Shown here piece after piece: positions 12,026 to 62,095 of a stretch of DNA of 64,000 nucleotides. The position numbers were made by a program, and so were the translations under genes. Each line of letters begins with the position of its first letter. The first letter of the stretch is position 1. The notes beneath the pieces are model-generated. The model made no database searches. It saw only the letters and a program-made list of their open reading frames with translations, and was not told where the DNA came from. Source of the DNA: Hyalella azteca (Eukaryota > Arthropoda > Malacostraca > Amphipoda > Hyalellidae); NCBI RefSeq assembly GCF_000764305.2, contig NW_025945035.1:82244-146243 (forward strand). Reading direction: 5' to 3'.

Positions 12026-12160
12026 TCACTGCACGAAGAGGAGACTGAGGCCATCTCCTATGGGCAGGAATGAAACGCGTACGCGGGAATCGCGGTGCAC
12101 TTTATCGTTGAACTCCCTGATGGCAACCGTGCACTCATCTGTGTGTGATGTGTCGAACAC
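12026..12160 (-). CDS. OMT exon 5 (terminal, stop TGA)
   Basis: Acceptor GGTGTTGTGCAG opens 135 nt reading VFDTSHTDECTVAIREF, then HRDSRVRVSFLPIGDGLSL and a stop at 12026-12028. The sequence fits the family's final strand, where LPxxDG is typical. It is too short for a standard ORF filter and was found by splice-phase reasoning. Confidence 0.9.
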   Translation of the reverse strand: MFDTSHTDECTVAIREFNDKVHRDSRVRVSFLPIGDGLSLLFVQ

Positions 12161-15100
12161 CTGCACAACACATGCTTGTGTTACTCAGAGTGTGTGATGT
12201 GTCCTTTCCACTCACCCCACCATTCAACCTACCACTCACCCTACCACTCACCCCACCACTCACCCTACAACTCACCCTACCACTCACCCTACCACTCACC
12301 CCACCAACCCCACCATTCACCCCACCACTCACCCTGCCACTCCACAATGTATTGTCCACCGCAATGATGCCTCCCCTCCTAACAAGCAGCAGGCACAGCT
12401 CGTAGTAGCCCCAATAGTTTTCCTTGTCGGCGTCGATGAAGGCGAAGTCAAAAGTTCCTGACTGTCCATCGTCCACGAGCTTCTGGAGGTTGTCCATCGC
12501 GGGGCCGAAGTGGATCTTGATCTTCTCCTTCACTCCGGCCTTCTCGAAGAATGGGTAGCCTGAGAGAGACAAAACATGAACATAATAATATAAATTAATG
12601 GCCATATTGTACAGATAATGATACATTCTCTGCACAGAGTTCTGATGTAGACGTTTGTTATGCTTAATTAATTGCGTAAAGATGACTTGCATAATGCCGT
12701 CATGCATGGTCTTATGAGAAGTCATGCATTTCCATAGGCAGCATTGCGTAAATATATATAGGTGAAGCAAAATTTTATCACAGGGCCAACACACGAATAG
12801 CAAACGTAGAACATTGCGCGTCTGCTATATTCATGATATCGCTAATACTGTAGGTCATTTGCTATGCTAGCAAACATGCGAAAAAGAAGTGCATTTCTTC
12901 CGGCATCTAAAAACCCTTTCGATCTTCCTTCGTTTAGTGAGCTCATTATGTCCGTGGATTTTGTACCGGCAGCCTCAAAAGAAAAATTCAACTCCGCGGA
13001 CTTTTAAAGTTTGGTAAGGGATCTTTTTGGTCGCAGCCTTCATAGTAATGGTGACAGGAAACGTGCATATTGAAGTCGGACATAGAAGACAGGATGCTTC
13101 ATTATTTACAATGAAGTAATACTCGGGCGAAAAGGCAATAGATACGGAAGGAAGTTCCTAGTTAATACAAATAGATACATAATTTACAAAGAAATGAGTC
13201 AAGGAACCGGTAATCGATCTCTGCAACAGAAAAGGCAACGAAATCCTCATCTAACTATTATTCATTTAATATTAACCATAAATTGTTCATTGAACTTTCA
13301 TGCGCAAGCCAGGGTCATCAGCGCACACGACTTTCAACATGTTAGCCACAAAATTTAAATTGCGTGTTCAGTAAAAAGCAAAGGTCAAACAGGTTTAATT
13401 AAACAATAAACTGTTTGCCGTACTAAAATTAAACAATTAACAATTTGCTGTGTAGTTAAACGCCAGACAAATGTAACAAATTAGATTAAGTACATGATAT
13501 AACAATGCGCATGAATGGTGAGGCATGAATAATGAATTTTTACGGTAAAATACAGGAAAGTACCGACCGTGTTTGACGTATTATTAGATCAAAATACAGG
13601 AAAATATCGACCGTGTTTGACGTATTATTAGATCAAAATACAGGAAAACATCGATCGTGTCTGACGTATTATTAAGGAAAAATAGATGAAAATATCGACC
13701 GTGTTTGACGTATTGTTAAGGCAAAATAGAGGAAAATATCGACCGTGTATAACGTATTATTAAGGCAAAATAGAGGAAAATATCGACCGTGTTTGACGTA
13801 TTATTAAGGCAAAATAGAGGAAAATATCGTCCGTGTTTGACGTATTATTAAGGCAAAATAGAGGGAAATATCGACGATGTTTGACGTATTATTAAGGCAA
13901 TATAGAGGAAAATATCGACCATGTTTGACGTATTATTATGGCAAAATACATGAAAATATCGACCGTGTTTGACGTATTATTATATCAAAATGCAGGAAAA
14001 TATCGACCGTGTTTGACGTATTATTAAAGCAAAATAGAGGAAAATATCGACCGTGTTTAACGTATTATTAAGGCAAAATACGGGAAAATATCGAACTTAT
14101 TTGACGTATTATTATGGCAAAATACAGGAAAATATCGACCGTGTTTGACGTATTATTAAAGCAAAATACGGAAAATATCGACCGTGTTTGACGTATTATT
14201 AAGGCTAAAACAGGAAAATATCGACCGTATTTGATGTATTATCAAGGCAAAATAGAGGAAAATATCGACCGTGTTTGACGTATTATTATGGCAAAATACA
14301 GGAAAATATCGACCGTGTTTGACGTATTATTGAAGCAAAATACGGGAAAATATCGACCGTGTTTGACGTATTATCTATGCAAAATAGAGGAAAATATCGA
14401 CCGTGTTTGATGTATTATCTAGGCAAAATAGAGGAAAATATCGACAATGTTTGGCGTATTATTAAGACAAAATACAGGAAAATATCGACCGTGTTTGAAG
14501 TATTATTAAGGCAAAATATGGGAAAATATAGAACGTGTTTGACGTATTATCAAGGTAAAATACGGGAAAATATCGATCTTGTTTGAAGTATTATTAAGGC
14601 AAAATACGGGAAAATATCGACCGTGTTTGACGTATTATTAAGGCAAAATACGGGAAAATATCGACCGTGTTTGACGTCTTATTAAGGCAAAATACGGGAA
14701 AATATCGACCGTGTTTGACGTCTTATTAAGGCAAAATACGGGAAAATATCGACCGTGTTTGACGTATTATTAAGGCAAAATACGGGAAAATATCGACCGT
14801 GTTTGACGTATTCCTCGCTGATGTCGAAGCCGTAGACCTGTCCGTCGTCAGGCAGGGCCAGGGCCGCGGAGAGGGCGCTGCTGCCCGTGAACATGCCGAT
14901 GTCCAGCACCTGCAGCACCAAACTATCTTCAGCGAGATAATTAATATTAATAATATTAGGTAAGTAATAAATAATCTTATTACTTATCTCTTCATGGAGA
15001 TAAGTAATAAGATTCAGTCATTAGTATAATTAGTATATTAGTATAATAATAAACTAAAATTAGTATAATACTAAAGTATAACAATAATACTAATGTATAA

Positions 15101-18100
15101 TACTATACTTTAGTATTATTTAGTATACTTTAGTATTTATAATACTCTAATACTAAAATTAGTATAATAATAATTGCAGCCTGGTTTAAAGCACGCAGTG
15201 GCAGTGGAAGAAGATAAGGTTTAATTGAGATATATCGGTAATCTAGTGAGATTTAGTATAATGATAGCGCGATGCCAATTGTGGGAGAAAACGTGTCTGT
15301 AATCAATGGAGGTTTTAAATCGAGATGAGGATCCGTTTTTAAGTTCCTTCAGTCGATCTCAATTATAAACGCAACTCTGATTGTTGACGGAGATCATGCG
15401 ACTGATATTGACAGATGCTACATGTAATGTAATGTAATCTTAATTAAATGTAATTTAATTATTCTTGCTAAATCTTGCAAGATCTTGCAAGTTTTATTAA
15501 TATTAATTAAAACATCGGAGATTAAATGTAATCTCTGCTGATGCAAATACTACACCGGTTTCTGATAGCGATATTATGCTCGTGATAACTGAGATAAGAC
15601 ACTTTCAATTGTTGGAGATAATACGCCCGTGATGATGGAGATAACACAGTAAAAATTGGATCACTACTCATTGCAGAGAGTGACAGAGAGCGCATTTTCT
15701 CGTGCATTAATCAGTTTTCATTGCGATTAGTACAGTGCACTGCACTCAGTACATCAGGTAAGAAGATGATATGTGCTGATAGAGGTCACGGACGGACGGA
15801 CGGACGGACGGACATGACTAGCACAATAGCGCCTTTTTTCCATAAATGAGAAAATGCTCTAAAAATTCATGGATATAACAGGTCAGCAGCAGAGTGTCCA
15901 CTGAGAAGGCACCTCGATGAGCTCCTGAGCTTCCGGTGTCCGGCGCTGCCGCCGGAAATCGAGCTCAAGAAGTGGAAATTGAGTTTGAAAAAAGGAAATT
16001 GAAATCAAAAGATGCCGGGGGGCTCTTGAATGGTCGGATAAAGGCCAGTCAATATACGAACATCTCTTAAATGTTTTTAAGTGAATAATTCATAGATGAC
16101 AGTTGAGGTCAAGTCAAAAGTTAGAGGAATTTAATGAAGGTTTCGTCACACTTTCTTGCCGTAAAATTATACTGCATTCATGGCTTAAAATTGAGACCGT
16201 TTTTCTCCGCTCATAACTATAGCTTTCTCGTGTCAGGCGGAAGTCATACTAAGAAAACCCAATGTGTCACATTGTCTAAATCCTGGCGCGTCCTCTTTCC
16301 CACAGTACGAGCAGAGAGCGCTGGTCTCATGGCCTCACCCTCCTGCCCCCGATGACCTCACCCTCCTGCCCCCGATGGCCTCACCCTCCTGCCCCCGATG
16401 GCCTCACCCTCCTGCCCCCGATGGCCTCACCCTCCTGCCACCGATGGCTTCACCATCCTGCCCCCGATGGCCTCACCCTCCTGCCCCCGATGGCCTCACC
16501 CTCTTGCTCCCGTTGGCCTCACCCTCTTGCCGCCGATGGCCTCACCCTCCTGCCTCCGATGACCTCACCCTCTTGCCCCCGATGGCCTCACCCTCTTGCC
16601 CCCGATGGCCTCACCCTCCTGCCCTGCCCCGATGGCCTCACCCTCTTGCCGCCGATGGCCCTGATGAGGTTGGCCGTGAGCTGGAGGACCTCAGGCGCCC
16701 CCATCATCAGGCCGACGCGCCCCATAGTCTTCAGGGTGTAGTCCTGTAGCTGCTGCTCTATATCCGTTAGCCTGCGGGGCAGCGATAGATATAGTAATAC
16801 AATATATTATAATAGTAGTTATAGCAATATCCATGTTCTTCAGGGTGTAGTCCGTCAGCTGCTGCTCTACATCAGTCAACCTGCGGGGCAGCAATATAGT
16901 AATACAATATATTATAACAATAGTTATAGCAATATCCATGTTCTTCAGGGTTCAGGGCTCTATCTCAGTCAGCCTGCGGTACAGCGATAGATCTCCCTTA
17001 TTATTAATAGGGAAGCGACAATAGTTTCCTTCAATATCTTTTTTAAATTTTAATCATGAATACGGCATTGAATTTTATTAGGGCAGCGATAGAACTCCGT
17101 TATTACTAGTATAGGGAAGCGACAATAGTTTCTTTCAAAATATTTTTTTAATTTAGATAATGAATACGGAATTTATTTTTTTATAACACGTGTTTTTTCA
17201 CTACAGACTTATTTGAATATTTCAGGACTGGAAAAAACCTTAAAATTCCTAGATTTATAAGACTTTTTGATCTTATTTACTTGCTTGACCTGAGTGTTCA
17301 GCGATGTATTTGGTGGTTGAGGCCATCATGACTCACCTAAGCGAGTGTTCAGCGATGTATTTGGTGGTTGAGGCCATCATGACTCACCTGAGCGAGTGTT
17401 CAGCGATGTATTTGGTGGTTGAGGCCATCATGACTCACCTGAGCGAGTGTTCAGCGATGTATTTGGTGGTTGAGGCCATCATGACTCACCTGAGCGAGTG
17501 TTCAGCGATGTATTTGGTGGTTGAGGCCATCATGACTCACCTGAGCGAGTGTTCAGCGATGTATTTGGTGGTTGAGGCCATCATGACTCACCTGAGCGAG
17601 TGTTCAGCGATGTATTTGGTGGTTGAGGCCATCATGACTCACCTGAGCGAGTGTTCAGCGATGTATTTGGTGGTTGAGGCCATCATGACTCACCTGAGCG
17701 AGTGTTCAGCGATGTATTTGGTGGTTGAGGCCATCATGACTCACCTGAGCGAGTGTTCAGCGATGTATTTGGTGGTTGAGGCCATCATGACTCACCTGAG
17801 CGAGTGTTCAGCGATGTATTTGGTGGTTGAGGCCATCATGACTCACCTGAGCGAGTGTTCAGCGATGTATTTGGTGGTTGAGGCCATCATGACTCACCTG
17901 AGCGAGTGTTCAGCGATGTATTTGGTGGTTGAGGCCATCATGACTCACCTGAGCGAGTGTTCAGCGATGTATTTGGTGGTTGAGGCCATCATGACTCACC
18001 TGAGCGAGTGTTCAGCGATGTATTTGGTGGTTGAGGCCATCATGACTCACCTGAGCGAGTGTTCAGCGATGTATTTGGTGGTTGAGGCCATCATGACTCA

Positions 18101-18177
18101 CCTGAGCGAGTGTTCAGCGATGTATTTGGTGGTTGAGGCCATCATGACTCACCTGAGCGAGTGTTCAGCGATGTATT
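12026..18177 (-). CDS. SAM-dependent O-methyltransferase gene (CCoAOMT-like), 5 exons
   Basis: The spliced product of about 214 residues belongs to the cation-dependent methyltransferase family of caffeoyl-CoA OMT and COMTD1. These enzymes transfer a methyl group from SAM to a catechol-type hydroxyl, using a divalent metal. The sequence shows the N-terminal helix with GAPEVLQL, SAM motif I VLDIGMFTG, an acidic SAM-binding segment GFDISEEY, the metal-binding segment FIDADKENY, and VDNTLWSG. The C-terminus GDGLSLLFVQ then stop fits the family. The exons join with phases 2, 0, 1 and 0. Exon-1 context is obscured by an array and an N. The true substrate is unknown. Every intron carries its own minisatellite beginning at the donor, so the gene is about 6 kb for under 0.7 kb of coding sequence. 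Confidence 0.92.
12190..12345. repeat. 12-bp minisatellite at OMT exon 4 donor
   Basis: On the minus strand the exon end AGTGGCAGG|GTGAGTGG runs straight into units of GTGAGTGGTAGG, so each 12-mer again provides AGG|GTGAGT. About 11 units. The frame stays open from the exon as SGRVSGGV-type residues, but exon 5 joins precisely at the first donor. Confidence 0.9.
12333..12559 (-). CDS. OMT exon 4 (metal-binding region)
   Basis: Acceptor TTGTCTCTCTCAG|GC opens with YPFFEKAGV. The exon carries TFDFAFIDADKENYWGYY, with the metal-binding Asp, and ends VDNTLWSGR at donor AGG|GTGAGT. It is 227 nt and joins exon 5 in phase 0. Confidence 0.93.
12561..13535. other. OMT intron 3, unique part
   Basis: AT-rich intronic sequence between exon 4 and the 44-bp array. 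No further exon or element was recognised. Confidence 0.6.
13540..14797. repeat. 44-bp minisatellite at OMT exon 3 donor, about 28 copies
   Basis: Each unit, on the minus strand, holds AATACGTCAAACACG, the last 15 nt of exon 3, then GTCGATATTTTC, the start of the intron, then intronic filler. The array starts exactly at the exon 3 border and extends into the intron for about 1.26 kb. Scattered substitutions show it is not a single recent expansion, although the copies nearest the exon are the most uniform. Confidence 0.92.
14798..14909 (-). CDS. OMT exon 3 (SAM-binding motif I)
   Basis: Acceptor GTGCTGCAG|GTGCTG begins VLDIGMFTGSSAL, the glycine-rich SAM loop, and the exon ends DISEEYVKH plus one base. 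The donor is ACG|GTCGAT, which departs from GTRAGT but gives the correct phase 1 join (G plus GC makes Gly) to exon 4. This same donor is copied in every unit of the 44-bp array downstream. Confidence 0.9.
14910..16329. other. OMT intron 2: AT-rich repeat and GGAC run
   Basis: Intronic sequence with an AT-rich degenerate repeat of AGTATAATACTAAA words (15.0-15.17 kb) and a short GGAC tetranucleotide run (about 15.79-15.81 kb). A GC-rich inverted repeat, GAGCTCCTGAGCTTCCGG against CCGGAAATCGAGCTC, lies near 15.92-15.97 kb. No exon was found. Confidence 0.6.
16330..16641. repeat. 23-bp minisatellite at OMT exon 2 donor, about 13 copies
   Basis: The minus-strand unit GCCATCGGGGGCAGGAGG|GTGAG mirrors the exon end GCCATCGGCGGCAAGAGG|GTGAG. 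The array begins at the splice border and extends into intron 2. The 23-bp period is not a multiple of three, so it cannot be a coding expansion. Confidence 0.92.
16642..16771 (-). CDS. OMT exon 2
   Basis: Acceptor CTGCCCCGCAG|G and donor AAGAGG|GTGAGG bound 130 nt. The translation contains LTDIEQQLQDYTLK, MMGAPEVLQL and ANLIRAIGGKR, the helical region just before the SAM fold. The donor end seeds the 23-bp array downstream, and the acceptor end is duplicated upstream. Confidence 0.9.
16730..16990. repeat. About 110-bp tandem triplication of the OMT exon 2 acceptor
   Basis: Three copies each hold, on the minus strand, an acceptor (CTGCCCCGCAG or a decayed form) and the first part of exon 2 (TGGAGCAGCAGCT-like, then CTACACCCTGAAG), followed by AACATGGATATTGC intronic sequence. 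The two upstream copies are truncated exon fragments. Only the copy at 16771 continues into the full exon. Confidence 0.8.
16991..17290. other. OMT intron 1, unique part
   Basis: AT-rich sequence with an imperfect direct duplication of TAGGGAAGCGACAATAGTTT (17.02 and 17.11 kb). Confidence 0.5.
17291..18177. repeat. 51-bp minisatellite at OMT exon 1 donor, about 17 copies
   Basis: The minus-strand unit contains TACATCGCTGAACACTCGCT, then CAG|GTGAGTCATGATGG, so every copy carries an ATG, a coding exon end and a perfect donor. Copies are almost identical, which implies recent expansion or active homogenisation. The plus strand is also open (17-residue period) but I treat that as an artefact. 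Confidence 0.92.
18153..18177 (-). CDS. OMT exon 1, 3' end (best-placed copy)
   Basis: The reverse strand reads KYIAEHSL followed by AG|GTGAGT, a perfect donor in phase 2, and the G at the start of exon 2 completes AGG. KYIAEHSLR then LTDIEQ matches the family N-terminus. This 25-nt segment abuts an N, and seventeen downstream copies of the same exon end follow in the array, so which copy is used and where the ATG lies are uncertain. Each complete unit has an in-frame ATG 12 residues before the HSL, giving MASTTKY. Confidence 0.5.
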
Positions 18178-20489: not shown

Positions 20490-21573
20490 CTATAACGGCA
20501 TGGCTTTATCGTCGGCCTCTTCACTTGGCGAGGGACTGATCTTGCCCTCCGACGGCGCTGCATCGCTGAGCGACGAAGGCGTGTCCACATCACGGCACGA
20601 CTCGGCCAAAGGAGACTGTGTTCGGGAGGTTGATGAAGATCCTGCAGTTGCCGATCCAGCAGCTGAAGATGCACATCTACTTCCAGATGGTGAACCGGCA
20701 GGTTCGGGAACGGGAGAAGGGGCTGCCGCTACAGCTATATCTGGATTCACGACTTCCGGTTGATTCAAGTCGCGGGGTTCTTCACGGGGCTCTTCACGTG
20801 GCTCTTCCCGGGGTGTGGCACCTGCGGGTGCGGCACCTGCGGGTGCGGCACCTGCGGGTGCGGCGGGTCGAGCAGCATTCATTTCCTCTTGCTGCCTTAG
20901 GCGTTCCATATTTTCACGATGCTGTTGGAGTAAATGCCTGCGCAACTCACCAGGTTCAAGTGGGCTTAACTCTTCCTGTACCTCCATCTCTTCGCCTTCT
21001 TTCCCCTCTTCCTTCTCTGCGTAGTGTCCGTCATCTACGCTTTTAGCTCCACTCTTCTTTCTCCTTCTGTCTTTATCGTCATCGTCGTCATCGTCTTTCT
21101 CCCCAGCTCCTCCCGAAGGGGGCGAGCCAGCTGGGGCCTGTTCAGAGGCTTTTTCAGTCCTTTTGCTCTGCCGCCTGGGAGCTCCTCCTGAGCTAGACTC
21201 GTCGTCTGCGTCAGTTACCTCATCTTGCCCAACAGATCCATCTCCTTTGAACTTCGTACAAACTCCAGGAAGTCCAGCATATGTACTTTCCACGTACAAG
21301 ATAGTCTTGGTATTCTGACCACATTCCAGGACCATCGCTGGATTAGGTTGTGCATGAAGTGGTTCAACTGGGCAATCCCGGATTGCGATATTCTCGCCGA
21401 TGGAAGTCAGAAATTCCAAATAGTCCAAATGCACGAGGCTCGCTTCCAAGAAGGTGTCTACAGTTCGTTGTGAAGGTATGCCGTTAAACAAGTAATCTTC
21501 CAACTTCCCGTCTTCTAGCCGGCATTTCTCATCAGATAGTTTTCCTTGGGTCAGTTGCTTAGTTACACAAACC
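20490..21573 (-). CDS. Terminal exon of an unrecognised protein with acidic Pro/Glu-rich tail
   Basis: About 360 codons. The start is set by an acceptor GGTGTTTTTGCAG (phase 2); the open frame continues upstream of it to 21674, so an intronless start there cannot be excluded. Residues 1-110 look folded (YLFNGIPSQRTVDTFLEAS, LDYLEFLTSIGENIAIRDCP, CGQNTKTILYVESTYAG). The rest is low complexity: an Asp run with KDRRRKK, then a Glu/Arg-rich helix (LRRHLLQQHRENMERLRQQ), then APAGA and REEP micro-repeats, then a Ser/Pro-rich acidic end. I do not recognise the family. The basic-acidic, disordered tail might suit a nuclear or scaffold protein, but that is speculation. AATAAA follows. Confidence 0.65.
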
Positions 21574-21579
21574 CTGCAA

Positions 21580-23005
21580 AAACACCGAGTCAATATAGGC
21601 ATTACACACAAGAGGCGCGCGTATTTAGGCTGTCTGTCTACCCGGCTAACCTTGTTGCCCAGTGAGATGCTCAAGCTTCTTACCCGATGTGATTATGGAT
21701 TCATCAAACTTACCCCCTAAAGTATAGCCAGTTAACCATTTTTCACCAAGGCTGGCTGAAGTTCGTTTGCACGGGAAGGCTGCACAACAAATTCTAAACA
21801 TTTATGTAGAAGTTTTTGCAGGTTCCTACTACTGTAAGTACCAGCCGTTGATAGACCTGCACCATAAATCTAAGTAGAAAATGCCACCCAGATGCCACCG
21901 AAAATTCTTAGATGCCACCGAGTCAGACCGAGACAGTTTCGATCATACAACTGCTACACAATTTAGCAAGACCTGCTACTTCTTTCTAAGAAAGATAACC
22001 AAATACGACTGCCACCTCAAATCATAATTTTTCAAAATTGACGTTACTCGCATTTGCTCTTACGTGTATATAGGAATCTTCACTACTCTTCTGCAAATTA
22101 TCAATTCACGACCAGCACGTAAAGAAGGGTTCAAGACATGGTCATATTGTAAGCATGCTAGCCAAACATTGACGTCCATATTTTATGTCAATTTTCAAAT
22201 CTGAATAAAAACTGGATAATATTTCCAAAACTTACGATATTATTCGAAGCTTTGCTTCGTCGAAGGCCATAAGATTGAAGTTATGAGCGTAATACCGTAA
22301 GGAACTTCTATCTGAAGTTTCATTACAAATATTATAGCAGGTAGTGAAGAACAGTCATTTGACCAGAATATAACCTATAGTTTAAGTCTCATATCACGAC
22401 ACGTAATCTGCCATTAGTTCGCCTAACTAGAAGTGAATAGATGGCCCCCATAAGCTAACACCCGTCATTATCGCCAACCAAATCAACACTTACATGTTTA
22501 CACCGGAAGACTGTAGTGATGAGGACACTTGAGGCGACTGTAGAGGTGATGAGGAACGATTACGTCGACAGAAGACAATCTGTCCAACAGACATCGATGC
22601 TTTCTAACTTGAGTGTCGAGAGTTTTCTAAGAAATGCGGAATTTCTTAACACACGCAACACCCTTGAAGTTGAACAAAATGTTGAACACTGAAGCTGTAA
22701 TTGTATGCAACTTCCAAATTTTATTATAATTCAATTACTATATATAGTTTTAGAACGTTTAGTATTTAATTACTTACTGCAGTGGTTAACGTTAACGTAA
22801 CTAACAGCCTTCGTCTGATTAATGTCTGACTGAAGACAAATTTGATAATTACTAATAATTTATAAATGGCACCAGCAAGCAAATACGAGTTGAGATACTG
22901 ATAAATAATTAACAGATAAGATAGCGATGAATTGTTACCAGCAACAGAGATGCTAATCGGCAAATTACTTTACATGTCATCCCGCTAATTATATGACACG
23001 AAGGC
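21580..23005. other. Upstream of the 20.5-kb gene; no exon recognised
   Basis: Mostly AT-rich. I could not find a convincing preceding exon for the terminal exon at 20.5-21.6 kb. Confidence 0.4.
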
Positions 23006-28866: not shown

Positions 28867-29022
28867 TGCCAGCAGCCGCCTGGCCCCCACCCTCATGTCA
28901 TGATGAGCAAACTGCGGGTGCACCACAACAGCCGTGGAGACCTCAGTTCTGCTGAGCGTGCCAGGGTCAGGATTAGGTTCTGCGGGCGCACGGCCGACCG
29001 CGTAGTCGCCCTCCTGGGCGAA
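28867..29022 (-). CDS. Candidate TMC 3' exon
   Basis: A strong acceptor with a long pyrimidine tract (CTCTACGCCGCCTGTGCCTGCAG) opens a GC-rich frame reading FAQEGDYAVGRAPAEP, later TAVVVHPQFAHHDMRVG. It is in phase 0, matching the donor of the TMC exon at 31361. A possible donor GGCA|GTACAG ends it at 28867, or it may run on into the repeat ORF. Linkage to TMC rests on strand, order and phase only; the residues are not diagnostic. Confidence 0.4.
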
Positions 29023-48499: not shown

Positions 48500-51400
48500 C
48501 TGTTGCAGCGGGACATTTCATGAACATGTTCACTTGCGATGATAGTGATGATGATAATGATGATAATGATATGCAAATTAACAAGTTTGTGTGGCATGTG
48601 TGGTATATGTGGCATGTGTGGCATGTATGACAGCTGTGGTCACGCTTGCCACCAGTAAACACTTTGCCACAAAAATGCGCCACATAAAAAAGTTTTTCAA
48701 AGAAAGCTACACGACGTATTATTATTGATATAATTATTTATTATTATTAGCATTATTATTGTTGCCAGTACATTAATCGTGGCATTAATTGTACCCACAA
48801 TAGAGCTACTCGCCTCCTGGCACACTCCTCGTTGACGCTGCGTGTGGTGACGTGTAGCCATAACTCCACGTAAATGTTGGTGACAGGAGCTGGCCGAGAT
48901 GACAGCGGCAAGTTGACGGACGACTGAGGCGGCACGGCTCCCTGTCAACAGGTGACAGATGGCAACAGTCTTAACAAGGACAAAGTTGTTAAGAGTTGCC
49001 CGAGATATTTTGCTGTCGACAATGTTCATTTAAAATAACTACGGTCAGTCGGTCACTCTATAAAATAACGACTGTCATTCTATAAAATAACCACGGCTAC
49101 TCTATAAACGCAACGCTAAATAAGTATATAAAATTTAATGCTTTAACATTTTTTTGCGGTGCAGCTGTTATTGGAAATTTGCATCAGATAAAAAGCTCTA
49201 AATAATTGGTCCATTGTTAGCTTGATTTTTAATATTATTAAATATCGCTGTCCAGATGGCTCACCTCACTGTCCAGATGGCTCACCTCGCTGTCCAGATG
49301 GCTCACCTCGCTGTCCAGATGGCTCACCTCGATGTCCAGATGGCTCACCTCGCTGTCCAGATGGCTCACCTCGCTGTCCAGATGGCCTCGCTGTCAAGAT
49401 GGCTCACATCGCTGTCCAGATGGCTCACCTCGCTGTCCAGATGGCGCAGGCTGAGGGCGTTGGCTGGCCAGGTGGTAACGCGTAAGGCTCTCAGGTGACC
49501 GTCAGGGTAACATGCGAACATCTTCTGCGGTATGATGCGGCTCCGCGCACGCAAAATCTTACCCTAGGACATTTATTAGGAACAACTCAAGTATTGTGAC
49601 TCGTATAATTTATACATAATACATAGCATTAATTAGGAATTGTTCTGCCACATTGTCTTCTGGGGTATGATGCGACTCCGCGCACGCATAATCTTACCCT
49701 AGGACATTTATTAGGAGTAACTCAAGTATTGTGACTAGCATTATCAATAAATAACATTCATTAAGAATTGTTCTGCTACTATACCTCCCCTGGTGATGTC
49801 TGGTGCCATTGTACGATAATAAATAGTGAAAGTACTATGTATAGTGCTTTCTTGTATAACATTCATAACGAATATATGTTCATAACAATAACATTCATTA
49901 AGAATTGTTCTGCTACTATACCTCCCCTGGTGTTCTCTGGTGCCATTGTACGACAATAAATAGGGAAACCACTATGTATAGCATAACATTCATTAAGAAT
50001 TGTGCTGCCACTATACCTCCTTTTGTGTTTTCTGGTGCTATTGTACGACAATAAATAGTAAAACCTTCTTACAGTGAAGCAGCATCGAGATATTCGGTCC
50101 TTGGCGGCTGCCAAATCACTACAAAAACAATGGCACTGCCACATCAACTATAGTTTCTCCGAGACACAGTCTATAGTGCCACAAGTTTATGGCCCGAGGC
50201 CACTGTGCCGTAATTTGTGATTGCATAGCGCCAGTATATGGCGCCACCGCGCCGTTTATTTATTGTCGATGGGAACAAAAAAAACTTCTAGAAGTCGAGT
50301 CTACTTCTCTCAAAAAACTTTGTCTAGGCTCGACTAGGAAGTCGAGCCTACAGGCAAGGGATGTCAAGATGACAGTTCGAAAATTACGAAGCTCATTTTC
50401 TGGATTGCCGCTACCAATTGGCTTAGTGAAACTGGCTGAGTGGCACTGACTGAGTGGTATTGACTGAATAACACTGACTGAGTGGCACTGACTGAGTGGT
50501 ATTGACTGAATAACACTGACTGAGTGGCACTGGCTGAGTGGCACTGGCTGAGTGGCACTGGCTGAGTGGCACTGGCTGAGTGGCACTGGCTGAGTGGCAC
50601 TGGCTGAGTGGCACTGGCTGAGTGGAATTGACTGAGTGACACTGGCTGAGTGGTATTGACTGGATGACACTGACTGAGTGGCACTGGCTGAGTGGTATTG
50701 ACTGAATGGCACTGGCTGAGTGGCACTGGCTGAGCGGTATTGACTGAATGACACTGGCCGAGTGGCACTGGCTGAGTGGCACTGGCTGAGTGGCATTGAC
50801 TGAATGGCACTGGCTGAGTGGCACTGGCTGAGTGGCTTAATTTTATTTTACCCGCGGCCTGCGGACTGCGAACAAAAATCCCCGTCCTTGATTGAATTTC
50901 TGCGGCGGTGAATATGGGCAGATTTGGGCATAGGCCTGATTGCTGCTGGGACTGGATTGCTGCTTGGAATAGATTGCTGCTGCTGGGACTGGATTGCTGC
51001 TAGGAGCAGATTGCTGCTGGAGCTAGATTGCTGCTGGGATTGGATTGCTGCTGGGAACAGATTGCAGCTAGGACTGGATTGCTGCTTGGAATAGATTGCG
51101 GCAGGGACTTGATTGCTGCTAGTAACAGATTGCTGCAAGGATTAAATTTATGCTAGGAACAGATTGCTGCTGGGACTGGATTGCTGCTAGGAACAGATTG
51201 CTGCAAGGATTAAATTTATGCTAGGAACAGATTGCTGCTGGGACTGGATTGCTGCTTGAAATAGATTACCTGAAGGGATTAGATTTCTGCTAGGAACAGA
51301 TTACTGCAAAGAGTAAATTGCTGCTATGAATAGATTGTTTTTAGGGTTTAATTGATGCTAGGACGAGATTACTCCAAGGATTACATTGGTGCTAGGAACA

Positions 51401-54400
51401 GATCGCTGCAAGGATTAGATTGTTCCTAGGATTTACATTGGTGCTAGGAACAGATTGTGGCAAGGATTAGATTGCTACTAGGAACAATTACTTCTCATTC
51501 GCGTGGTTATTCCTATGCTATTTGCATGCGAGAACTGCTAAAAAACATGCCGATCAATGGACGATTAGTTGTCGATCAACGGATGATCAGCGGACGATTA
51601 GTTGACGATCAATGATCAATGGACGATTAGTTGATGATCAATAATCAATGGACGATTAGTTGACGATCAACGGGTGATCAACGGACGATTAGTTGACGAT
51701 TAATGATCAACGGACGATCAATGGACTGTCTGCATCGTCGATTTGGCCTTGAGAACTTAACTCGTATCTTATTTACTGAAATTCAGGTCTACTATTTAAT
51801 CGTTACGGAACTCTTATCATTTCGTAAGTGCAACTCGCGTAACTAAGAATTTTTTTCCTTAAAAGTTAGAGAAATGCCTCTAATAATAATAATTAACATT
51901 GATTTCCCCTCAGCACTGCAACACTGAGGGAAATTGGCTGAGGGTTGAGCCAATCAGGCGCTGTTGCCTTCTGCTGATGAGGCAAACAGTCTACTGTGTA
52001 CAGTCCTATGTATGTGTACAGTCACTGGCTGAGTAGATGTGCAGTCACTGGCAGTGTAGGTGTACAGTCTTTAATTTAACTACAGTCACTTGCTTGGCTT
52101 GTGTACAGTTACTGGTATAGCTTGTGTACAGTCACTTGCCTGGCTTGTGTTCAGTCACTAGCTGAGTAAATGTACAGTCACTGGCAGTGTAGGTGTACGG
52201 TCTTTAATTTAACTACAGTCACTCACTTGCTTGGCTTGTGTACAGTCACTTACTTGGCTTGTGTACAGTCATTTACTTGGCTTGTGTACAGTCATTTACT
52301 TGGCTTGTGCACAGTCATTTACTTATCTTGTGTACAGTCATTTACTTGGCTTGTGTGCAGTCATTTACTTGGCTTGTGTACAGTCATTTACTTGGCTTGT
52401 GCACAGTCACTTATTTAGCTAGTGTACAGTCACTTGCTCGGCTTGTGTACAGTCACTTATTTAGCTAGTGTACAGTCACTTGCTCGGCTTGTGTACAGTC
52501 ACTTATTTAGCTAGCGTACAGTCACTTGCTCGGCTTGTGCACAGTCACTTATTTAGCTTGCGTAAAGTCGTCACTTGTTTATCTCTAATTTCTAAGCTTC
52601 TTCAGTCATTCATTGAGCCACTGTGAGGGCTACTTTAGCGTCACTCTTACTAAGCTAGTCATACTAAGCCAGCCTACCTAAACCATTAAGACACGTGGCA
52701 CACTTAGGAAGCCTAACCTTAGTGCACATGCAGTTCCAGCAATATAGTTTACCCGAATCTATAATGAATTAAAGTTCTCGCCCGGGCACTCGTGTTTACA
52801 TATGTCTATTGCAGCTCTCAGTAACTGAGAAGCTCATTAATATTAAACTTGGAGAGGACCTCAGATGTAAGTACCCTGAGATCTCAATTATCGCGAGCCG
52901 CTAATTATACATGAGGTAATGAACAGGTACCCTCGTCTGCCCTCAGTTGCCTTAATCTCACTCTCTCCCTCAGTTACCCTCAGTTACCCTAAGTTACCCT
53001 CAGGTACCCTCAGTTACCCTCAGTTACCCTCAGTTACCCTCAGTTACCCTCAGTTACCCTCAGTTACCCTCAGTTACCCCAGTTACCCTCAGTTGCCCTT
53101 AGTTGCCCTCAGTTGCCTCAGTTGCCTTCATGTGCCCTAGGCTACATTCAATTACCCTCAGTAGCCTTCAGTTTCCCTCAGTTGCCCTCAGTTGCCCTCA
53201 GTTGCCCTCAGTTGCCCTCAGTTGCCCTCAGTTGCCCTCAGTTGCCCTCAGTTGCATTCATTCACACTCGAATATCTGGGGTAACATATAGGCCCATGAG
53301 GACCTTCAGTTGCCCTTATGGGCCCTTGGCTGCACTCAGTCACCCTCAGTTGCCTCAGTTACCCTCAGTTGCCTTCAGTTACCCTCAGTTGCCCCCTGTT
53401 ACCCTCAGTTGCCCTCAGTTACCCTCAGTTGCCCGCAGTTACCCTCAGTTACCCTCAGTAGCCCTCAGTTACCCTCAGTTGCCCTCAGTTACCCACAGTT
53501 GCCCCCAGTTACCCTCAGTTTCCCCCAGACACCCTCAGTTGCCCTCAATTGCCCTCAGTTGCCCCCTGTTACCCTCAGTTGCCCTCAGTTGCCCTCAATT
53601 GCCCTCAATTGCCCTCAGTTACCCTCAGTTGCCCCCAGTTACCCTCAGTTGCCCTCAATTACCCTCAGTTGCCCCCTGTTACCCTCAGTTGCCCTCAGTT
53701 ACCCTCAGTTGCCCCCAGTTACCCTCAGTTGCCCTCAGTTACCCTCAGTTACCCTCAGTTGCCCCCAGTTACCCTCAGTTGCCCTCAGTTACCCTCAGTT
53801 GCCCCCAGTTACCCTCAGTTGCCCTCAGTTACCCTCAGTTGCCCTCAATTGCCCTCAGTTGCCCCCTGTTACCCTCAGTAGCCCTCAGTTGCCCTCATTT
53901 GCCCTACCCTATAAAGCCACTCCTCAACATCGCCACCCCCGATCAGCTCAGAGCCTGCGTACCGTGCAGGAGAGCGACGCTGAGCCGGGATTTTCAGTCA
54001 TCTGAGCACAGAAGTAAAGCTGAATTTGTTAACATAAAAGCCCGAGATAATCCGCCTTAAGAGCGCGACTCACGTCGCTCAGAGGCAGCGAGAAGTCCAA
54101 GACGGCGGAGAAATGCTGTACCATCTTGTAGCCGAGCTGGTAGGGCAGGTCGCAGCAGGGGTGAGGGCTCTCTAGCTGCGGCAAAAACTGCGCAGTGAAA
54201 GTAAACGGGTAATGTTTACTATTCCCTTATGGTTTTTAATGAGCTATTAGCTAAAAATAACTATTATATAATATATAATTTTAAGCAAAATTTAATTAAT
54301 TATTACCAAATAATTAATTATTTATTACCTAATAATTTAATTAATTATCACCTAATAATTTAATTGATTATTACCTAATTATTTAATTAAATTTAATTAT

Positions 54401-57400
54401 TAGGTAAAAAATATTATTTTCTAAATTCATAGCTAAAAATAATCACATAATATATGTCCTAGAATGTAGTTGATTATAAAATTATAAGAAACATAACAAA
54501 AATTTACAATAGTAATTAAACTTTAACATAAAGTTCTGCCGTCATTGACAAACAATTCGCCACCGTCAAATACACGCGATTTATCTAACACCGTTGAATA
54601 AGAAACTCCTGGTTTACTTTAAAAACGATAGCACTTTCCCTTGGTATTCCAACACAAAAAATGACCATTATTACATACATTCCAGAATAAATTAGCAAGT
54701 TCCTTACCTTAACTATAATTAACTAGAATTACCTTAACTATAACTAAAGAATCACGCGTAAAATAAATTAATCTTATTTAATAACTTCAATAATAACAAT
54801 CATCTTCTTGACTGACAATGCCATCTGTTGATGATGAATGCAATTCATGTAGAGGGTAATTTTTCAGATATGAATGATCTAGCGGGATTATGAAATGATG
54901 TCAATTTCATATCGTTTAATTATCACGAAAGAGAGTCATTTAAAGATACAGTAATATCGATTGAATGTTGGCATTGTATCACACAGTAAATCAATACAAA
55001 ATGTCTTTCAGGTTTTCATATTTAAAGTTTCAATTTTTTCTATAATTTATGTATAAAAGTTTCAATTTTTCCTATAATTTCAATTAATAAATTTTCCCAA
55101 TGTATTGCTATAAGGGCTAATGAATATTCACTGAATTCATAAATTCATACAAATTCATCAAAATTATTGACGATTAAATACAATTCAATAAAACGAGACG
55201 AAGAACTACGAACCCGTAGCTTGTAGTCTGCGGATCCGTCCCACAACAACGTTTTATCCAACTGTCCTTGAAGGATTAATTTATCCAAGGACATCCTGAC
55301 CATCTGTCTGATGAGGCTGTGACTGACGTGTCGCAGGATGTCTTCATAATATCCTTGTCTCTGGTGATGGGCGACCTTGTCTCGAGTTGCTTCAGTGGCA
55401 GGAGGAAGAGTGGATGAAGAAGAGGAATTGAAAGAAGTGTTGAATTTCCTGGCAAAGAAATATCGGTGAGAAGCTTCCCGCAGCGCAGGCCAGTCTGAGG
55501 ATTCAATCGTGCTTGGACCCTGGCAGAGAGGAAAGATATTGATATGTTAGGCTGATGTACAGTGGACTATTGGTGGAAGATACTGAAATGTTAGGATGAT
55601 CAACCGTGGACTTTTGGTGAGAGATACTGAAATGTTAAGCTGATTATCAGTGTACTTTTGATAAGAGTTACTGAAATGTTAGGCTGATCAACCGTGAACT
55701 TTTGAGGGGAGAAATACTGATATGTTAGACTAATCTTCCGTGGACTTTAGGTGAGTTATACCGAAATGTTCGGCTGATTTACCGTCAACATCTGGTGAGA
55801 AATAGCGAAATGTTAGGCTAATTAACCGTGGACTATTGGTGAACGATACTGAAATGTTATGTTGACGTACCGTGAACTATTGATGAAAGATACTAAAATG
55901 TTAGGCTGATTTACCGTAGATCATTGGTGAGAGAAACTGAAAAGTTAAGCTGATTTACAGTGTTTCATTGGTGGAAGATACTGAAATGTTAGGCTGATTT
56001 ACCGTGGACTATTAGTGAGAGATACTGAAAGGTCAGGCTGATTTACCGTGGACTATTGTGAGAAATACCGACATGAAGGCATTATTTTCGGGATAGCGAT
56101 ATGAGCATTTATTATTATAAAAGATAATGCATCTTTTAAAATAGAGGTAAATAAATTGTATGAATTTATTGACAAAATATGCAAAAATGCAGGAAATTAT
56201 TATATAAATCAATCGAAATTTAGAAACGAGATGGAACTCGAATGTTGTTTTCATTTCACATATAAACATTGCTGCACCAAGTGGAGATCAACATGACCTG
56301 AGCTCCAGCAGCGGAGTGCATGCTGACCAGCGGGCACCCACCTGGCCACAGAAGTCGGCCTCGTGAGTGTGCCTGCAGAGCTGCAGCGCTGACCGCTTCT
56401 GGTAAGCTTTGAGCCAATGAAGGGAGACGTTCAGCGTCCTGTTCCTGTTGGCAGAAACTACAATCAAGGTTTAATTACAGGGCATCTTCGTTAATTATCT
56501 TGAGAAATTTAAAAGCACTTACATTAAAGAGCGAATCCTGTTCCTGTTGCCAGAAATAACACTAAAGGTTCTATTACAGGGCAACTTTGTTAATTATTTT
56601 AAGAAATTTAAAAGCACTTACGTGAAAGGACAAAATTTTGTCAGTGTTAAAGAATGAAAAAAATATAACAAATAGACAAAATAAAATAATGCATAAGAAT
56701 ATCATACATAACTGTAGCTGCATATGCAGTTAAAATAGTCATAATTCGATATAAAATTATGACTCGGGATTGTCGAAGTGAAAACTCCTGAGTGATGCAA
56801 TGTAGTTTTTGAAATGTTATACTTTGCGAGGAAAAATTCGGGTGCAGGGGGCAATATTCTTACTAATAAAGTGACGATATCAAATAATTGGTAGAGTGAA
56901 ATAGAGGATGGCAGAGTGAGGGTAGCTCATAATTTGGCAGTGAGGGAAAGAATGGTAGAGTGAGGCTAGCCAATAATTGGTAGAGTAAAATAGAAGATGG
57001 TAGAGTGAAGGTTGCTTAAAATTAGCAGGGTGAAAGAGAATATGGTAGAGTGAAGGTAGCTCAAAATTAGCAGAGTGAAAGAGAGGATGGTAGAGTGAAG
57101 GTAGCTCAAAATTAGCAGTGTGAAAAAGAGGATGGTAGAGTGAAAATAGCTCAAAATTAGCAGACTGAAAGAGAGGATGGTAGAGTGAAGGTAGCTCAAA
57201 AGCAGAGTGAAAGAGAGGATGGTAGAGTGAAGGTAGCTCAAAATTAGCAGAGTGAAAAAGAGGATGGTAGAGTGAAAATAGCTCAAAATTAGCAGACTGA
57301 AAGAGAGGATGGTAGAGTGAGGGTAGCTCAAAAGTAGCAGAATGAAAGAGAGGATGGTAGAGTGAAGGTAGCTCAAAATTAGCAGAGTGAAAAAGAAGAT

Positions 57401-60400: not shown

Positions 60401-61839
60401 CAAGCGGCTTTTGTCCAAAGGCCTTGCTCGGCAACCGAACATATTAAAACAATGGGTAATTTTGGGAGAGTATAACATGATGGACAAGATTAAAACTACC
60501 CTGGCAGCTCCAAAATGCAAAATACCGAGAAACGAAATGCAATGACTAGAGAACATTGAAACGCTATCACGCAATGGCGTTCGAACTCTAATTTAAGTAG
60601 CGCCAATCATAGTATATAAGCAGTGAAGATATGTATGATAACATTGTACACGTATGATCCCACACTACACGTATGATCCCACAGTACACGTATAATCCTA
60701 CGGTATACGGCACACGTGATGTCAGTCAAACTTAGTTGGTAGCTCGTATCGTAAAATACTGTTCAGGGAAGTGAGAGTTCTTTGCAATTGAAATGTTGAG
60801 ACAATTTTCTTATGGTGATACTTTCAAATTCATAAATGACTTTTTTTATACCGGGATATAGCAGAAAAATTATATTACCTTCATATTGGAATTCAAAGTT
60901 GTATCCCATGTTTCAGTTTTTGTATAAGATATTCATTTTCTTTATGTGTGAACTGAGTATAAGTGACAGTCCACTCTTCAGTAAATATCCCAGTCTAAAT
61001 TCAGACTCCATTCTGAATCGCCCCGGACTCCATTCCCTCGTCTAATAGGTGAATCAGGAGCAAATTGGCCACATACTCTATTCGGATGCTAATTACGTGC
61101 TTATTGTGGGAATCTACTGCACAATGGGCCGATTCTGCGTAATATAACCTAAAAGAGCAGCTGGTCAGGCTGTATCCTGTCAGACGCTGGTATTGGAGCG
61201 AACCATTACCATCTCCTGCTCATGGAATTGCGTTGATGTATGCGCGCGCGTACGTTTGTTAAGTCATACGATGGAACGAGATGAGAATTGAACTGTTGAG
61301 TTGAGTTTACGTTATAGTTAGATAGTAATTACATTAATTATATGAGAAAAAATAATATATTATTTTGCTGTATTTAAAAACCACAATCTGCTTGAAGGCA
61401 TGGAAATATGATTAAGAAAGGGTCGTGGCAAGTTGCCAGGGTCGTGGTAAGTTGCTTACTCCAACTTACTCTTCAACTCAAACTCAATTGAATTTCCAAT
61501 TCAACATTAGCGAAAGGTCGTTGCAAGTTGTCAAATGACTCTCCAACACAAGCTCAAGTGAAATTCTTACTCAGTATGAGCGAAAGGTTGTTTCATATTG
61601 TCAACTTACACTCCAACTCAACTTCTAGTGAATTTCCTGCTCAACATAATGGAAAAGTCGTAGCAAGTTCTCCCAGACCTTCCCACCTGAGGGGCGAGTT
61701 TTGCAGGACTGTGGCGGTGAACATCTCGTCAGGGAGGATGGACGTGGAGAAGTAGAAATGGTGACGACGCAACGCGGCAGACCTGTTAGCGCTGAACAAG
61801 TACTGCACTAATGACCTGTGAGGTACCGACCACTGCGAC
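48361..61839 (-). CDS. XYLT: Peptide O-xylosyltransferase gene (XYLT-like), 3' part
   Basis: Xylosyltransferases add the first xylose to serine on proteoglycan core proteins in the Golgi, starting the linker for chondroitin and heparan sulfate. The seven minus-strand exons here (about 330 residues) cover the end of the GT14 catalytic domain and the region after it. Family matches: GSQWSVPHRSLVQYL aligns with the GSDWF.LSR.FV.Y region; STSILPDEMFTATVLQNS aligns with the TLLPAESFFHTVLENS region; LCRHTHEADFCG and SHRYFFARKF match the conserved Cys and FFARKF segment. Later exons resemble a beta-rich C-terminal domain. Phases agree (2,0,0,0,0), except that the last join needs an alternative donor. 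The 5' exons lie beyond 64 kb. Introns hold at least a dozen different satellites. Confidence 0.85.
48826..48923 (-). CDS. XYLT: XYLT exon with alternative donors
   Basis: Acceptor GCCGTGCCGCCTCAG opens SSVNLPLSSRPAPVTNIY and VELWLHVTTRSVNEE. A donor GAGGA|GTGTGC ending at 48826 gives phase 2 and fits the last exon. A better-looking donor GGCGA|GTAGCT at 48810 would break the frame, so the exact border needs transcript data. Confidence 0.65.
49250..49428. repeat. 21-bp minisatellite at an XYLT exon donor, about 9 copies
   Basis: The minus-strand unit GTGAGCCATCTGGACAGCGA plus G is the exon end CATCTGGACAGCGAG joined to the intron start GTGAGC. The array starts at the splice border and runs into the intron. 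Being 21 bp it stays in frame (HLDSEVS). Confidence 0.92.
49429..49524 (-). CDS. XYLT: XYLT exon, 32 codons
   Basis: Acceptor CATCATACCGCAG to donor AGCGAG|GTGAGC. It reads KMFACYPDGHLRALRVTTWP then ANALSLRHLDSE. Phase 0 at both ends. Its last 15 nt plus the donor form the unit of the 21-bp array that follows. Confidence 0.75.
49500..50070. repeat. Larger tandem duplications beside the XYLT exon
   Basis: A segment of about 150 bp containing GGTATGATGCGGCTCCGCGC and ACCCTAGGACATTTATTAGG occurs twice (from about 49.52 and 49.66 kb). The first copy includes the acceptor region of the 49524 exon. About three units follow with CATTAAGAATTGTTCTGCTA and CTATACCTCC. Confidence 0.8.
50425..50835. repeat. 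15-bp minisatellite, about 27 copies
   Basis: Units of CTGAGTGGCACTGGC and ACTGAGTGGTATTG type. Open minus frames through it are artefacts. Confidence 0.92.
50935..51485. repeat. About 17-bp degenerate minisatellite
   Basis: Units of GGATTGCTGCTGGGAAC and AGATTGCTGCTAGGA, decaying toward the right. Confidence 0.88.
51545..51730. repeat. Degenerate GACGATCAAC repeat
   Basis: Short units of GGACGATTAGTTGACGATCA with variants. Confidence 0.85.
52010..52560. repeat. 24-bp minisatellite, about 20 copies
   Basis: Units of CTTGGCTTGTGTACAGTCAT and TTA. The minus strand has GCCAA|GTAAAT, a possible donor; the plus strand has TGTACAG, acceptor-like. Neither can be tied to an exon. Confidence 0.9.
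52925..53895. repeat. 10-bp minisatellite, nearly 1 kb
   Basis: CAGTTACCCT / CAGTTGCCCT units, about 90 copies. The minus strand gives GAGG|GTAACTGAGG, weakly donor-like, every 10 bp. Plus-strand open frames up to 315 codons are artefacts of the 10-bp period. Confidence 0.93.
54074..54187 (-). CDS. XYLT: XYLT exon, 38 codons
   Basis: Acceptor TTTCACTGCGCAG to donor AGCGAC|GTGAGT. It reads FLPQLESPHPCCDLPYQL and GYKMVQHFSAVLDFSLPLSD. Phase 0 at both ends. Confidence 0.8.
54195..55205. other. XYLT intron, AT-rich
   Basis: Contains an AT-rich degenerate inverted repeat (TTAATTATTACCTAATAATT family, about 54.28-54.42 kb). No exon was found. Confidence 0.6.
55214..55519 (-). CDS. XYLT: XYLT exon with FFARKF motif
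   Basis: Acceptor TTTCCTCTCTGCCAG to donor CTACGG|GTTCGT, 102 codons. It contains SDWPALREASHRYFFARKF, a Ser run, then YYEDILRHVSHSLIRQM and TLLWDGSADYKLR. The donor GTTCGT is atypical, but phase and continuity support it. Confidence 0.85.
55525..56070. repeat. About 44-60-bp minisatellite next to an XYLT acceptor
   Basis: Degenerate units of GATACTGAAATGTTAGGCTG, ATTTACCGTGGACTATTGGT and GAGA. The unit nearest the exon is the intronic sequence immediately upstream of the 55519 acceptor. Plus strand reads ATTG|GTGAGA; minus strand CCACG|GTAAAT. Confidence 0.88.
56342..56438 (-). CDS. XYLT: XYLT exon: Cys-rich segment
   Basis: Acceptor TGCCAACAGGAACAG to donor GCCAG|GTGGGT. It reads TLNVSLHWLKAYQKRSALQ then LCRHTHEADFCGQ, matching the family's Cys-containing segment before FFARKF. 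A roughly 105-bp duplication including the acceptor region lies just upstream. Confidence 0.85.
56445..56640. repeat. About 105-bp duplication at an XYLT acceptor
   Basis: Two copies containing CCTGTTCCTGTTGGCAGAAA and AATTTAAAAGCACTTAC. The copy beside the exon supplies the acceptor of the 56438 exon. Confidence 0.8.
56890..57490. repeat. 45-bp minisatellite, about 12 copies
   Basis: Units of AGAGTGAAGGTAGCTCAAAA, TTAGCAGAGTGAAAGAGAGG and ATGGT. The plus strand carries GAAG|GTAGCT in most units; the minus strand is pyrimidine-rich. Confidence 0.9.
57725..57990. repeat. About 65-bp tandem repeat, 4 copies
   Basis: Units with GAGTACAGTACAGGAGCAGA and GAGGTCTCACAACACACAGC. A plus frame leaves the array and continues to 58153, but nothing about it is recognisable. 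Confidence 0.88.
57991..58570. other. XYLT intron, unique part
   Basis: A short plus frame (GIVHGALIKEGILKKLKLPF) runs to 58153 without clear borders. I could not assign it to a gene. Confidence 0.35.
58575..58935. repeat. 45-bp minisatellite with donor (+) or acceptor (-), about 8 copies
   Basis: The plus strand has TATCCT|GTAAGTGAAC in each unit; the minus strand has GTTCACTTACAG|GATAC, a good acceptor. These are the same bases read both ways. The unit at the right end is the only one open in the frame QYPPLGEQGMYP; the others have a TAA. XYLT runs minus, so an acceptor reading would suit it, but no exon of XYLT fits here. Confidence 0.9.
58936..59110. repeat. 32-bp repeat with GC-type donor words, about 5 copies
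   Basis: Units of CTCCTCTCCTGCAAGGCAAG and TATCCTGCAAG. TGCAAG|GCAAGT resembles the consensus of the rare GC-AG intron class; some copies read GCAAGT after CCT. Confidence 0.85.
59365..60285. repeat. About 56-bp minisatellite with AATAAA on the minus strand
   Basis: Units of CAGTTTATTGAACTTATGGC, TATATCATGCAGTAGACATG and CGTGTCAAAACTGTTA, about 16 copies. The reverse complement holds AATAAACTG in most copies, inside an XYLT intron and in the sense orientation of the gene. Confidence 0.92.
60290..61425. other. XYLT intron, mostly unique
   Basis: Three short copies of CACGTATGATCCCACA lie near 60.65-60.70 kb. No exon was recognised. Confidence 0.5.
61430..61680. repeat. About 85-bp degenerate tandem repeat, 3 copies
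   Basis: Units with GCGAAAGGTCGTTGCAAGTT and CTCCAACTCAA, immediately downstream (minus) of the XYLT exon at 61687. The donor itself is not part of the unit. Confidence 0.75.
61687..61839 (-). CDS. XYLT: XYLT exon: end of GT14 domain
   Basis: Acceptor TTCTGTTGCAG|G to donor CTCAG|GTGGGA, 153 nt, phase 2 at the 3' end. It encodes SQWSVPHRSLVQYLFSANR and FYFSTSILPDEMFTATVLQN. The conserved acidic PDE/PAE segment is present. The acceptor and exon start are repeated three more times upstream. Confidence 0.85.
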
Positions 61840-62095
61840 CTGCAACAGAATTAGTGTGGTAAAACATCGCAACAGAAACTGCAACAGTGATCTGTGAGGC
61901 ACCGCCCACTGCGACTTGTAACAGAATTAGTATGGTAAGACATCGCAACCAAAACTGCACCAGTGACCTGTGAGGTAGCGACCACTGCGACCTGCAGCAG
62001 AAATAGTGGTAGAACATTGCAACGGACACTGTACCAGTGACCTGTGGGGTACCGACCACTGCGACCTGTAACAAAACCAGTAGTAGAACATCAAT
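61800..62095. repeat. About 75-bp tandem repeat of an XYLT acceptor, about 4 copies
   Basis: Minus-strand units contain CTAATTCTGTTGCAG|GTCGC, AGTGGTCGGTACCTCACAGG and then CACTGGTGCAGTTT. Each copy repeats the polypyrimidine tract, the CAG acceptor and the first roughly 28 nt of the exon. Only the copy at 61839 leads into the full exon. Confidence 0.88.

Follow-up and report, generated by a model that had tools for sequence, protein, structure and literature searches.

An intriguing question relates to minisatellites at the edges of exons; namely, whether splice sites are places where tandem duplications preferentially arise or whether duplication is frequent throughout a genome and is tolerated where it happens to cross an exon border. 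We examined this in 64,000 nucleotides of the genome of the amphipod Hyalella azteca, referred to here as the window, in which arrays of duplicated exon–intron borders are confirmed in three genes.

Genes and repeat content of the window

All three genes lie on the minus strand. Exon-like segments of one gene belong to a caffeoyl-CoA/catechol O-methyltransferase (COMT-like; Pfam PF01596 and relatives in the PDB), the second encodes a TMC-family protein (Pfam PF07810) and the third encodes a protein xylosyltransferase (PDB 6ej7). Most borders were first placed by eye, and NCBI proteins agreed with these placements or shifted them by a few bases (Table 1). A protein search returned P0001, 'probable caffeoyl-CoA O-methyltransferase 2 [Hyalella azteca]', at 100% identity over 86% of the query, and the joined COMT-like exons reproduce it letter for letter across all 185 amino acids. 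The joined xylosyltransferase exons are identical to residues 502–859 of P0122 ('uncharacterized protein LOC108679286 [Hyalella azteca]'; UniRef name, protein xylosyltransferase), and residues 1–501 have no convincing match within the 64-kb window. An exon at 54074–54187 was placed from the alignment to the NCBI protein, and the borders used for the counts below are 1–2 bases off the final ones at the E5 donor. The xylosyltransferase E5–E6 intron (48500–48813, minus strand) fits a GC–AG intron, AGGAG/gcgagt ... aacag.

Other exons were placed by different evidence. COMT-like exon 0, which lies in the 51-bp array, has no counterpart in P0001 and was placed by homology: the amphipod homologue P0003 aligns to every 51-bp unit, weakly (23.5 bits, E = 0.31), the likeness of P0002 to this exon was judged by eye, and the PDB match 5lhm starts inside it, at residue 3. 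The one TMC relative found, P0121 (38%), backs TMC exon 3 and not exons 1, 2 and 4, and a comparison of the TMC gene with the PDB gave no match. TMC exon 3 has an in-frame stop at 32667–32669 (minus strand), which reflects either a pseudogene or a sequencing error. Two TMC segments were removed before counting: the doubtful exon 1 (34509–34589), neither border of which falls in an array reported by Tandem Repeats Finder (TRF), and a possible exon near 29.1 kb.

TRF returned 116 rows for the window, which merge into 79 arrays with periods of at least 9. These arrays make up 32.5% of the window, 48% of the mapped introns (eleven introns, 17.6 kb, of which two are flanked by TMC exons of lower certainty) and 4.9% of the mapped exons; COMT introns B–C and C–D reach 56% and 73%, respectively. 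The shares in the window and its introns are very high beside the 6.18% of tandem repeats given in the available text on another amphipod, Trinorchestia longiramus (PMC7062882). Microsatellite density in a further amphipod, Uristes adarei, was described in 2012 as the highest reported for any animal to that date (PMC3504011, available text). The window contains just two Ns, single bases at 18178 and 47261, each between adjoining arrays, so the array lengths at both places are unsure.

Table 1. Junction repeats, a neighbouring array and the exons concerned, in positions of the window (a slash marks the splice site)
Feature	Positions	Strand	Evidence and remarks
51-bp array, 17.4 copies, COMT-like exon 0	17292–18177	-	TRF; unit encodes MASTTKYIAEHSLR, ends CTCAG/GTGAGT
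23-bp array, 14.3 copies, COMT-like exon A donor	16329–16660	-	TRF; unit GCCATCGGCGGCAAGAGG/GTGAG
44-bp array, 29 copies, COMT-like exon B donor	13536–14812	-	TRF; 15 exon bases inside
12-bp array, 11.5 copies, COMT-like exon C donor	12208–12342	-	TRF; unit AGTGGCAGG/GTG; fills most of the 172-nt intron
39-bp array, 9.6 copies, TMC exon 4 donor	31003–31377	-	TRF; 17 exon bases inside
21-bp array, 9.8 copies, xylosyltransferase E4 donor	49245–49445	-	TRF; unit CATCTGGACAGCGAG/GTGAGC
105-bp duplication, 2.1 copies, COMT-like exon A acceptor	16728–16951	-	TRF; 44 exon bases inside
76-bp array, 3.6 copies, xylosyltransferase E1 acceptor	61802–62073	-	TRF; 38 exon bases inside
99-bp duplication, 1.9 copies, xylosyltransferase E2 acceptor	56437–56628	-	TRF
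About 85 nt around xylosyltransferase E4 acceptor (49523–49608), copied 135 nt upstream (49658–49743)	49523–49743	-	No TRF row
44-bp array, 12 copies, ending 11 nt before xylosyltransferase E3 acceptor	55531–56058	-	TRF; abuts the border, does not span it; uncounted
COMT-like exon A	16642–16771	-	Holds the start of P0001; acceptor outside P0001, placed by homology
COMT-like exon B	14798–14909	-	Pfam profile search; P0001
COMT-like exon C	12333–12559	-	Pfam PF01596; P0001
COMT-like exon D	12026–12160	-	P0001; its GACACATCACACAC (from 12154) recurs in the intron (from 12203)
TMC exon 3	31783–33176	-	PF07810; 38% to P0121
TMC exon 4, weakly supported	31361–31439	-	Frame continuity and splice sites; outside P0121
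Xylosyltransferase exon E1	61687–61839	-	P0122 from residue 502; PDB 6ej7; first base placed by the splice site
Xylosyltransferase exon E2	56342–56444	-	P0122
Xylosyltransferase exon E4	49429–49563	-	P0122

Repeat units at donors and acceptors

At six donors the repeat unit consists of the end of the exon followed by the 5′ splice site, with unit lengths of 12, 21, 23, 39, 44 and 51 bp, and all four mapped donors of the COMT-like gene carry such an array. TRF recovers the six arrays where a preliminary description had placed them, with the same unit lengths. That description had the arrays start exactly at the exon edge, which is not so, as TRF places 10–19 exon bases inside five of the six. 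Its statement that each unit holds the last 9–18 nt of the exon is right for five arrays and fails for the 51-bp unit, which comprises about 44 nt of exon and 7 nt of intron; the N at 18178 joins this array to another, which leaves the copy number and the 5′ end of the 51-bp array uncertain. The expected abundance of potential splice sites was borne out by retention of GT in most copies counted: 24 of 29 in the 44-bp array, 17 of 17 in the 51-bp array, 8 of 9 in the 21-bp array, 9 of 10 in the 12-bp array and, by eye, 14 of 14 in the 23-bp array, in which GGTGA is retained in all 14 parsed copies. Substitutions set the copies apart in five of the six donor arrays; in the 51-bp array the copies are nearly identical. 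The reading frame stays open across the copies of the TMC 39-bp array, the border of which was placed by frame continuity only. No likeness between units is visible by eye; they therefore look unrelated, which points to recurrence rather than to one repeat family, and recurrence in three genes with differing units, at donors and acceptors alike, was correctly foreseen.

Acceptors are affected at more places than the two arrays first described, with three TRF rows and a fourth acceptor that is copied 135 nt upstream; all four repeats have few copies. Three suggestive neighbouring features were kept out of the counts: the 44-bp array that abuts the E3 acceptor, a 70-bp array with its start 18 nt away from the E1 donor, and a 14-nt copy of the start of exon D in COMT intron C–D. 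That intron is 172 nt in length and, apart from the array of donor units that forms 73% of it, contains this copy; the 12-bp unit, as AGTGGCAGGGTG, is the spliced join of exons C and D.

Border arrays and chance

Because arrays fill so much of the window and of its mapped introns, chance is a serious rival to any special role of junctions. A near-identical copy lies at most 600 nt away from 10 of 27 borders in the three genes (6 of 13 donors and 4 of 14 acceptors), including five of the eight COMT-like borders tested. For the remaining 17 borders, no copy of the 20-mer at 15 of 20 matches occurs within 600 nt. In this count the point of the COMT donor D0 lay 2–3 nt off, inside one copy. Three of the ten copied borders have weaker exon evidence, namely homology for the COMT donor D0 and the exon A acceptor, and frame for the TMC donor D4. 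Nearby copies accompany 33% of 3,000 random positions; inside exons the figure is 0.9% of 816 positions, over half of them in the long TMC exon. Junctions therefore behave like intron and not like exon. Duplication across a border thus appears to be tolerated about as well as duplication within an intron. P0001 or P0122 extends over seven of the copied borders (three COMT donors, the acceptors of E1, E2 and E4, and the E4 donor), and at all seven the protein requires the exon-proximal copy.

Whether junctions exceed chance depends on the null model. Junctions inside any array number 8 of 26, both with provisional and with refined xylosyltransferase borders, compared with 8.4 expected after rotation and 8.7 at shifts of 50–200 nt, and are therefore not enriched. 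Taken as worded, the preliminary claim that junctions would stand out from such shifted positions would be contradicted by this count, yet plain overlap has little power because the introns are half array and most array bases are expanded copies. Array edges give a different result: at 8 of 26 junctions, an array has its exon-side edge no more than one unit away (1.56 expected after rotation, P = 0.0003; 0.92 at shifts). The excess persists with GC-matched points (1.62 expected, P = 0.0001) and with arrays of at least 2.5 copies only (6 of 26; 1.22 expected, P = 0.001). This null is too kind, as selection against exonic arrays would be enough to leave any spanning array anchored at its edge.

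We therefore collapsed each array to one unit, its founder, and asked what share of ancestral positions falls in a founder, with the borders D0 and XY_A4 added to the set. The founder share is 9.1% for the window (8.2% without the junction arrays) and 14.1% for introns (12.3% without them). Founders occur at 10 of 27 junctions, compared with 2.5 expected from the window (P = 0.0001) or 3.8 from introns (P = 0.003); all P values for junctions given here are post hoc, for a region chosen for its striking look, and borders of one gene are not independent. Seven of the 19 borders that lie inside NCBI proteins have founders (P = 0.001 and 0.012), as do 6 of 13 donors (1.2–1.8 expected; P = 0.0006 and 0.006), 4 of 14 acceptors (P = 0.03 and 0.12) and, without the COMT-like gene, which contributes much of the excess, 5 of 19 borders (P = 0.025 and 0.12). 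An excess of founders at junctions is likely, and its size is uncertain.

Three properties of the units were compared with controls. GC content does not account for the excess: units are just 3 points richer than their flanks (P = 0.04), and GC matching leaves the excess in place. Divergence that rises with distance from the exon was found in three of five arrays, similar to 48 control ends (P = 0.33). A donor-like motif, scored with a matrix, occurs at score 4 in 11 of the 79 arrays compared with 3.8 in matched windows, and these 11 include four known donor arrays and the E2 acceptor duplication; with the same matrix, stricter scores leave 3 versus 0.8 at 6 (P = 0.045), 2 versus 0.6 at 7 (P = 0.10) and none at 8.

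Origin of the arrays and known systems

We consider it probable that these are minisatellites of the 'mirage' type, in which frequent duplication sometimes straddles exon borders and survives as splicing keeps the exon-proximal site. The anatomy of the units, their differences between introns, the use of exon-proximal copies in gene models and the near absence of copies inside exons are direct observations; the duplication mechanism, the near-neutrality of the arrays and the splicing behaviour are steps that we infer. Tandem duplication of segments of 10–130 bp would be frequent in this genome, and some duplications would by chance start with a stretch lying across an exon border, then lengthen into the intron through slippage or unequal exchange. 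Extra copies would leave with the intron as the exon-proximal site is spliced, and arrays within coding exons would mostly be purged by selection. Border arrays may thus survive because splicing joins the exon-proximal copy. Two points weigh against this account: the 2.6- to 4-fold excess of founders at junctions is unexplained by tolerance alone, and the NCBI gene models, one of which (P0001) is without the exon of the 51-bp array, could be partly homology-built.

The founder excess is what would be expected if exon–intron borders were preferred birthplaces of tandem duplications, owing to sequence, chromatin or transcription-linked breakage at splice sites. This is a possible reading, although we lean against it. 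The number of edge-anchored arrays (8 of 26 versus 1.56), which GC matching does not reduce (1.62 expected, P = 0.0001), the founders at 10 of 27 junctions (versus 2.5–3.8) and at 6 of 13 donors (versus 1.2–1.8), and the donor-like units (11 of 79 versus 3.8, though five of the 11 are known junction repeats) all agree with it, whereas plain array overlap is at chance (8 of 26 versus 8.4), the results without the COMT-like gene (5 of 19) and for acceptors (4 of 14) are weaker (P = 0.02–0.12), and the comparison is post hoc, from one window picked as striking. The interpretation in the preliminary description is partly supported. A broader reading seems to us unlikely, namely that amphipod exon borders would be duplication hot spots from which introns expand, starting at their splice sites, that arrays of duplicate sites would be present at a large share of borders across the genome and that an intron such as the 172-nt COMT intron C–D would consist almost wholly of its own borders.

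Some introns might even owe their existence or their present position to tandem duplication of an AGG/GT proto-splice site, giving array and intron one origin. COMT intron C–D invites this suggestion, since an array of donor units, a 14-nt copy of exon D and a unit, AGTGGCAGGGTG, that matches the exon C–exon D join are what intron gain by tandem duplication would leave, and such a model is published, in the text available, for Drosophila, potato and amphioxus. In five introns, the prefix shared by the intronic part of the unit and the beginning of the following exon is only 1, 1, 1, 3 and 3 nt long, and we regard this origin as improbable. Selection for spare or regulated splice sites, yielding in-frame or NMD-linked variants, would fit the unit lengths of 12, 21, 39 and 51 bp, all multiples of three, the open frames across the 39-bp array and over the translated stretch of the 12-bp array, and a donor 9-mer with lower variability than the other bases of its unit in three of the five arrays computed (0.054 versus 0.070 for 44 bp, 0.012 versus 0.028 for 21 bp and 0.016 versus 0.066 for 23 bp, where the 9-mer is one base off). 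The 9-mer is more variable in the other two (0.078 versus 0.067 for 12 bp and 0.007 versus 0.000 for 51 bp), the 23- and 44-bp units shift the frame, the 51-bp unit has a stop and the frame of the 21-bp array closes within a few copies, which makes retention by selection quite improbable. It is more improbable still that the arrays are assembly artefacts, with repeats collapsed or invented at gaps, as the single Ns between adjoining arrays at 18178 and 47261 might hint: an N borders just one of the ten junction repeats, and copies vary by substitution in five of the six donor arrays.

In amphioxus, mirage minisatellites lie at 5′ and 3′ intron borders of globin and PGBD5 genes and also in Adh3 and TnC; the available text of these reports describes them as harmless, or thought to be harmless, to splicing and already carries a proposal of intron gain (PMC3087553, PMC3902484). 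As far as those descriptions go, units that span exon–intron borders at both ends of introns are common to the amphioxus cases (Adh3, the globins BflGb6 and BflGb9, TnC and PGBD5) and to H. azteca. Here the unit spans the border at 8 of 26 junctions in TRF arrays and at D0, and at 10 of 27 by nearby copies; both intron borders are involved, with differing units, and AG or GT is kept in many copies. The differences from what is described for amphioxus are that the host is an arthropod, that more borders per gene are affected (five of the eight tested in the COMT-like gene), that arrays reach 29 copies, that short units are mostly at donors and that introns are about half minisatellite. Judged from sequence, the kind of structure is already known from amphioxus and what appears new is its occurrence in an arthropod. 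Searches of open-access literature, and the available text of papers with crustacean data (PMC7062882, PMC7831040, PMC3504011 and PMC5111886), yielded no report of border minisatellites in crustaceans.

Similar arrangements are described elsewhere. In human segmental duplications, variable internal tandem repeats (mean, 30 bp in 4 copies) include some at exon–intron boundaries that alter introns (PMC2812944); according to the available text, these were found by comparing paralogues and have RNA support, whereas the H. azteca arrays are described from sequence and gene models. Papers on potato (PMC4974935) and Drosophila (PMC2891723) describe intron gain through tandem duplication. The duplicated segment in those cases, as far as the available text goes, likewise crosses an intron–exon border or holds a proto-splice site, but duplication and new intron were deduced by comparing species, whereas H. 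azteca presents long arrays in a single genome.

That a single gene in a phylum far removed from lancelets has mirages at several of its borders suggests that mirages are an outcome of a high birth rate of minisatellites. The minisatellite of the human interferon-induced transcript 6-16/G1P3/IFI6 reportedly provides multiple splice donor sites; judged by its title, that report shares with our case an array that supplies several donors, in a single gene. The H. azteca genome offers a test bed for intron growth and gain by tandem duplication and for the choice among near-identical splice sites. It also holds a warning for annotators, in that the exon within the 51-bp array is missing from the NCBI methyltransferase protein.

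Beyond the three genes, a Pfam search with 30 more open reading frames, picked by hand from about 250, gave nothing at E = 0.01 (ten others of the 250 had gone into an earlier Pfam profile search), and Rfam gave no match at gathering thresholds. A 411-amino-acid open frame at 27874–29109 (minus strand) contains arrays at 27881–28811 with units of 18, 21 and 42 bp, all multiples of three. It is probably a coding minisatellite, perhaps within the final exon of TMC, and has a Pfam match (PF21930) that looks repeat-driven. A 400-amino-acid open frame at 20490–21692 (minus strand), without a Pfam match, has a small 15-bp array and is a possible intronless gene.
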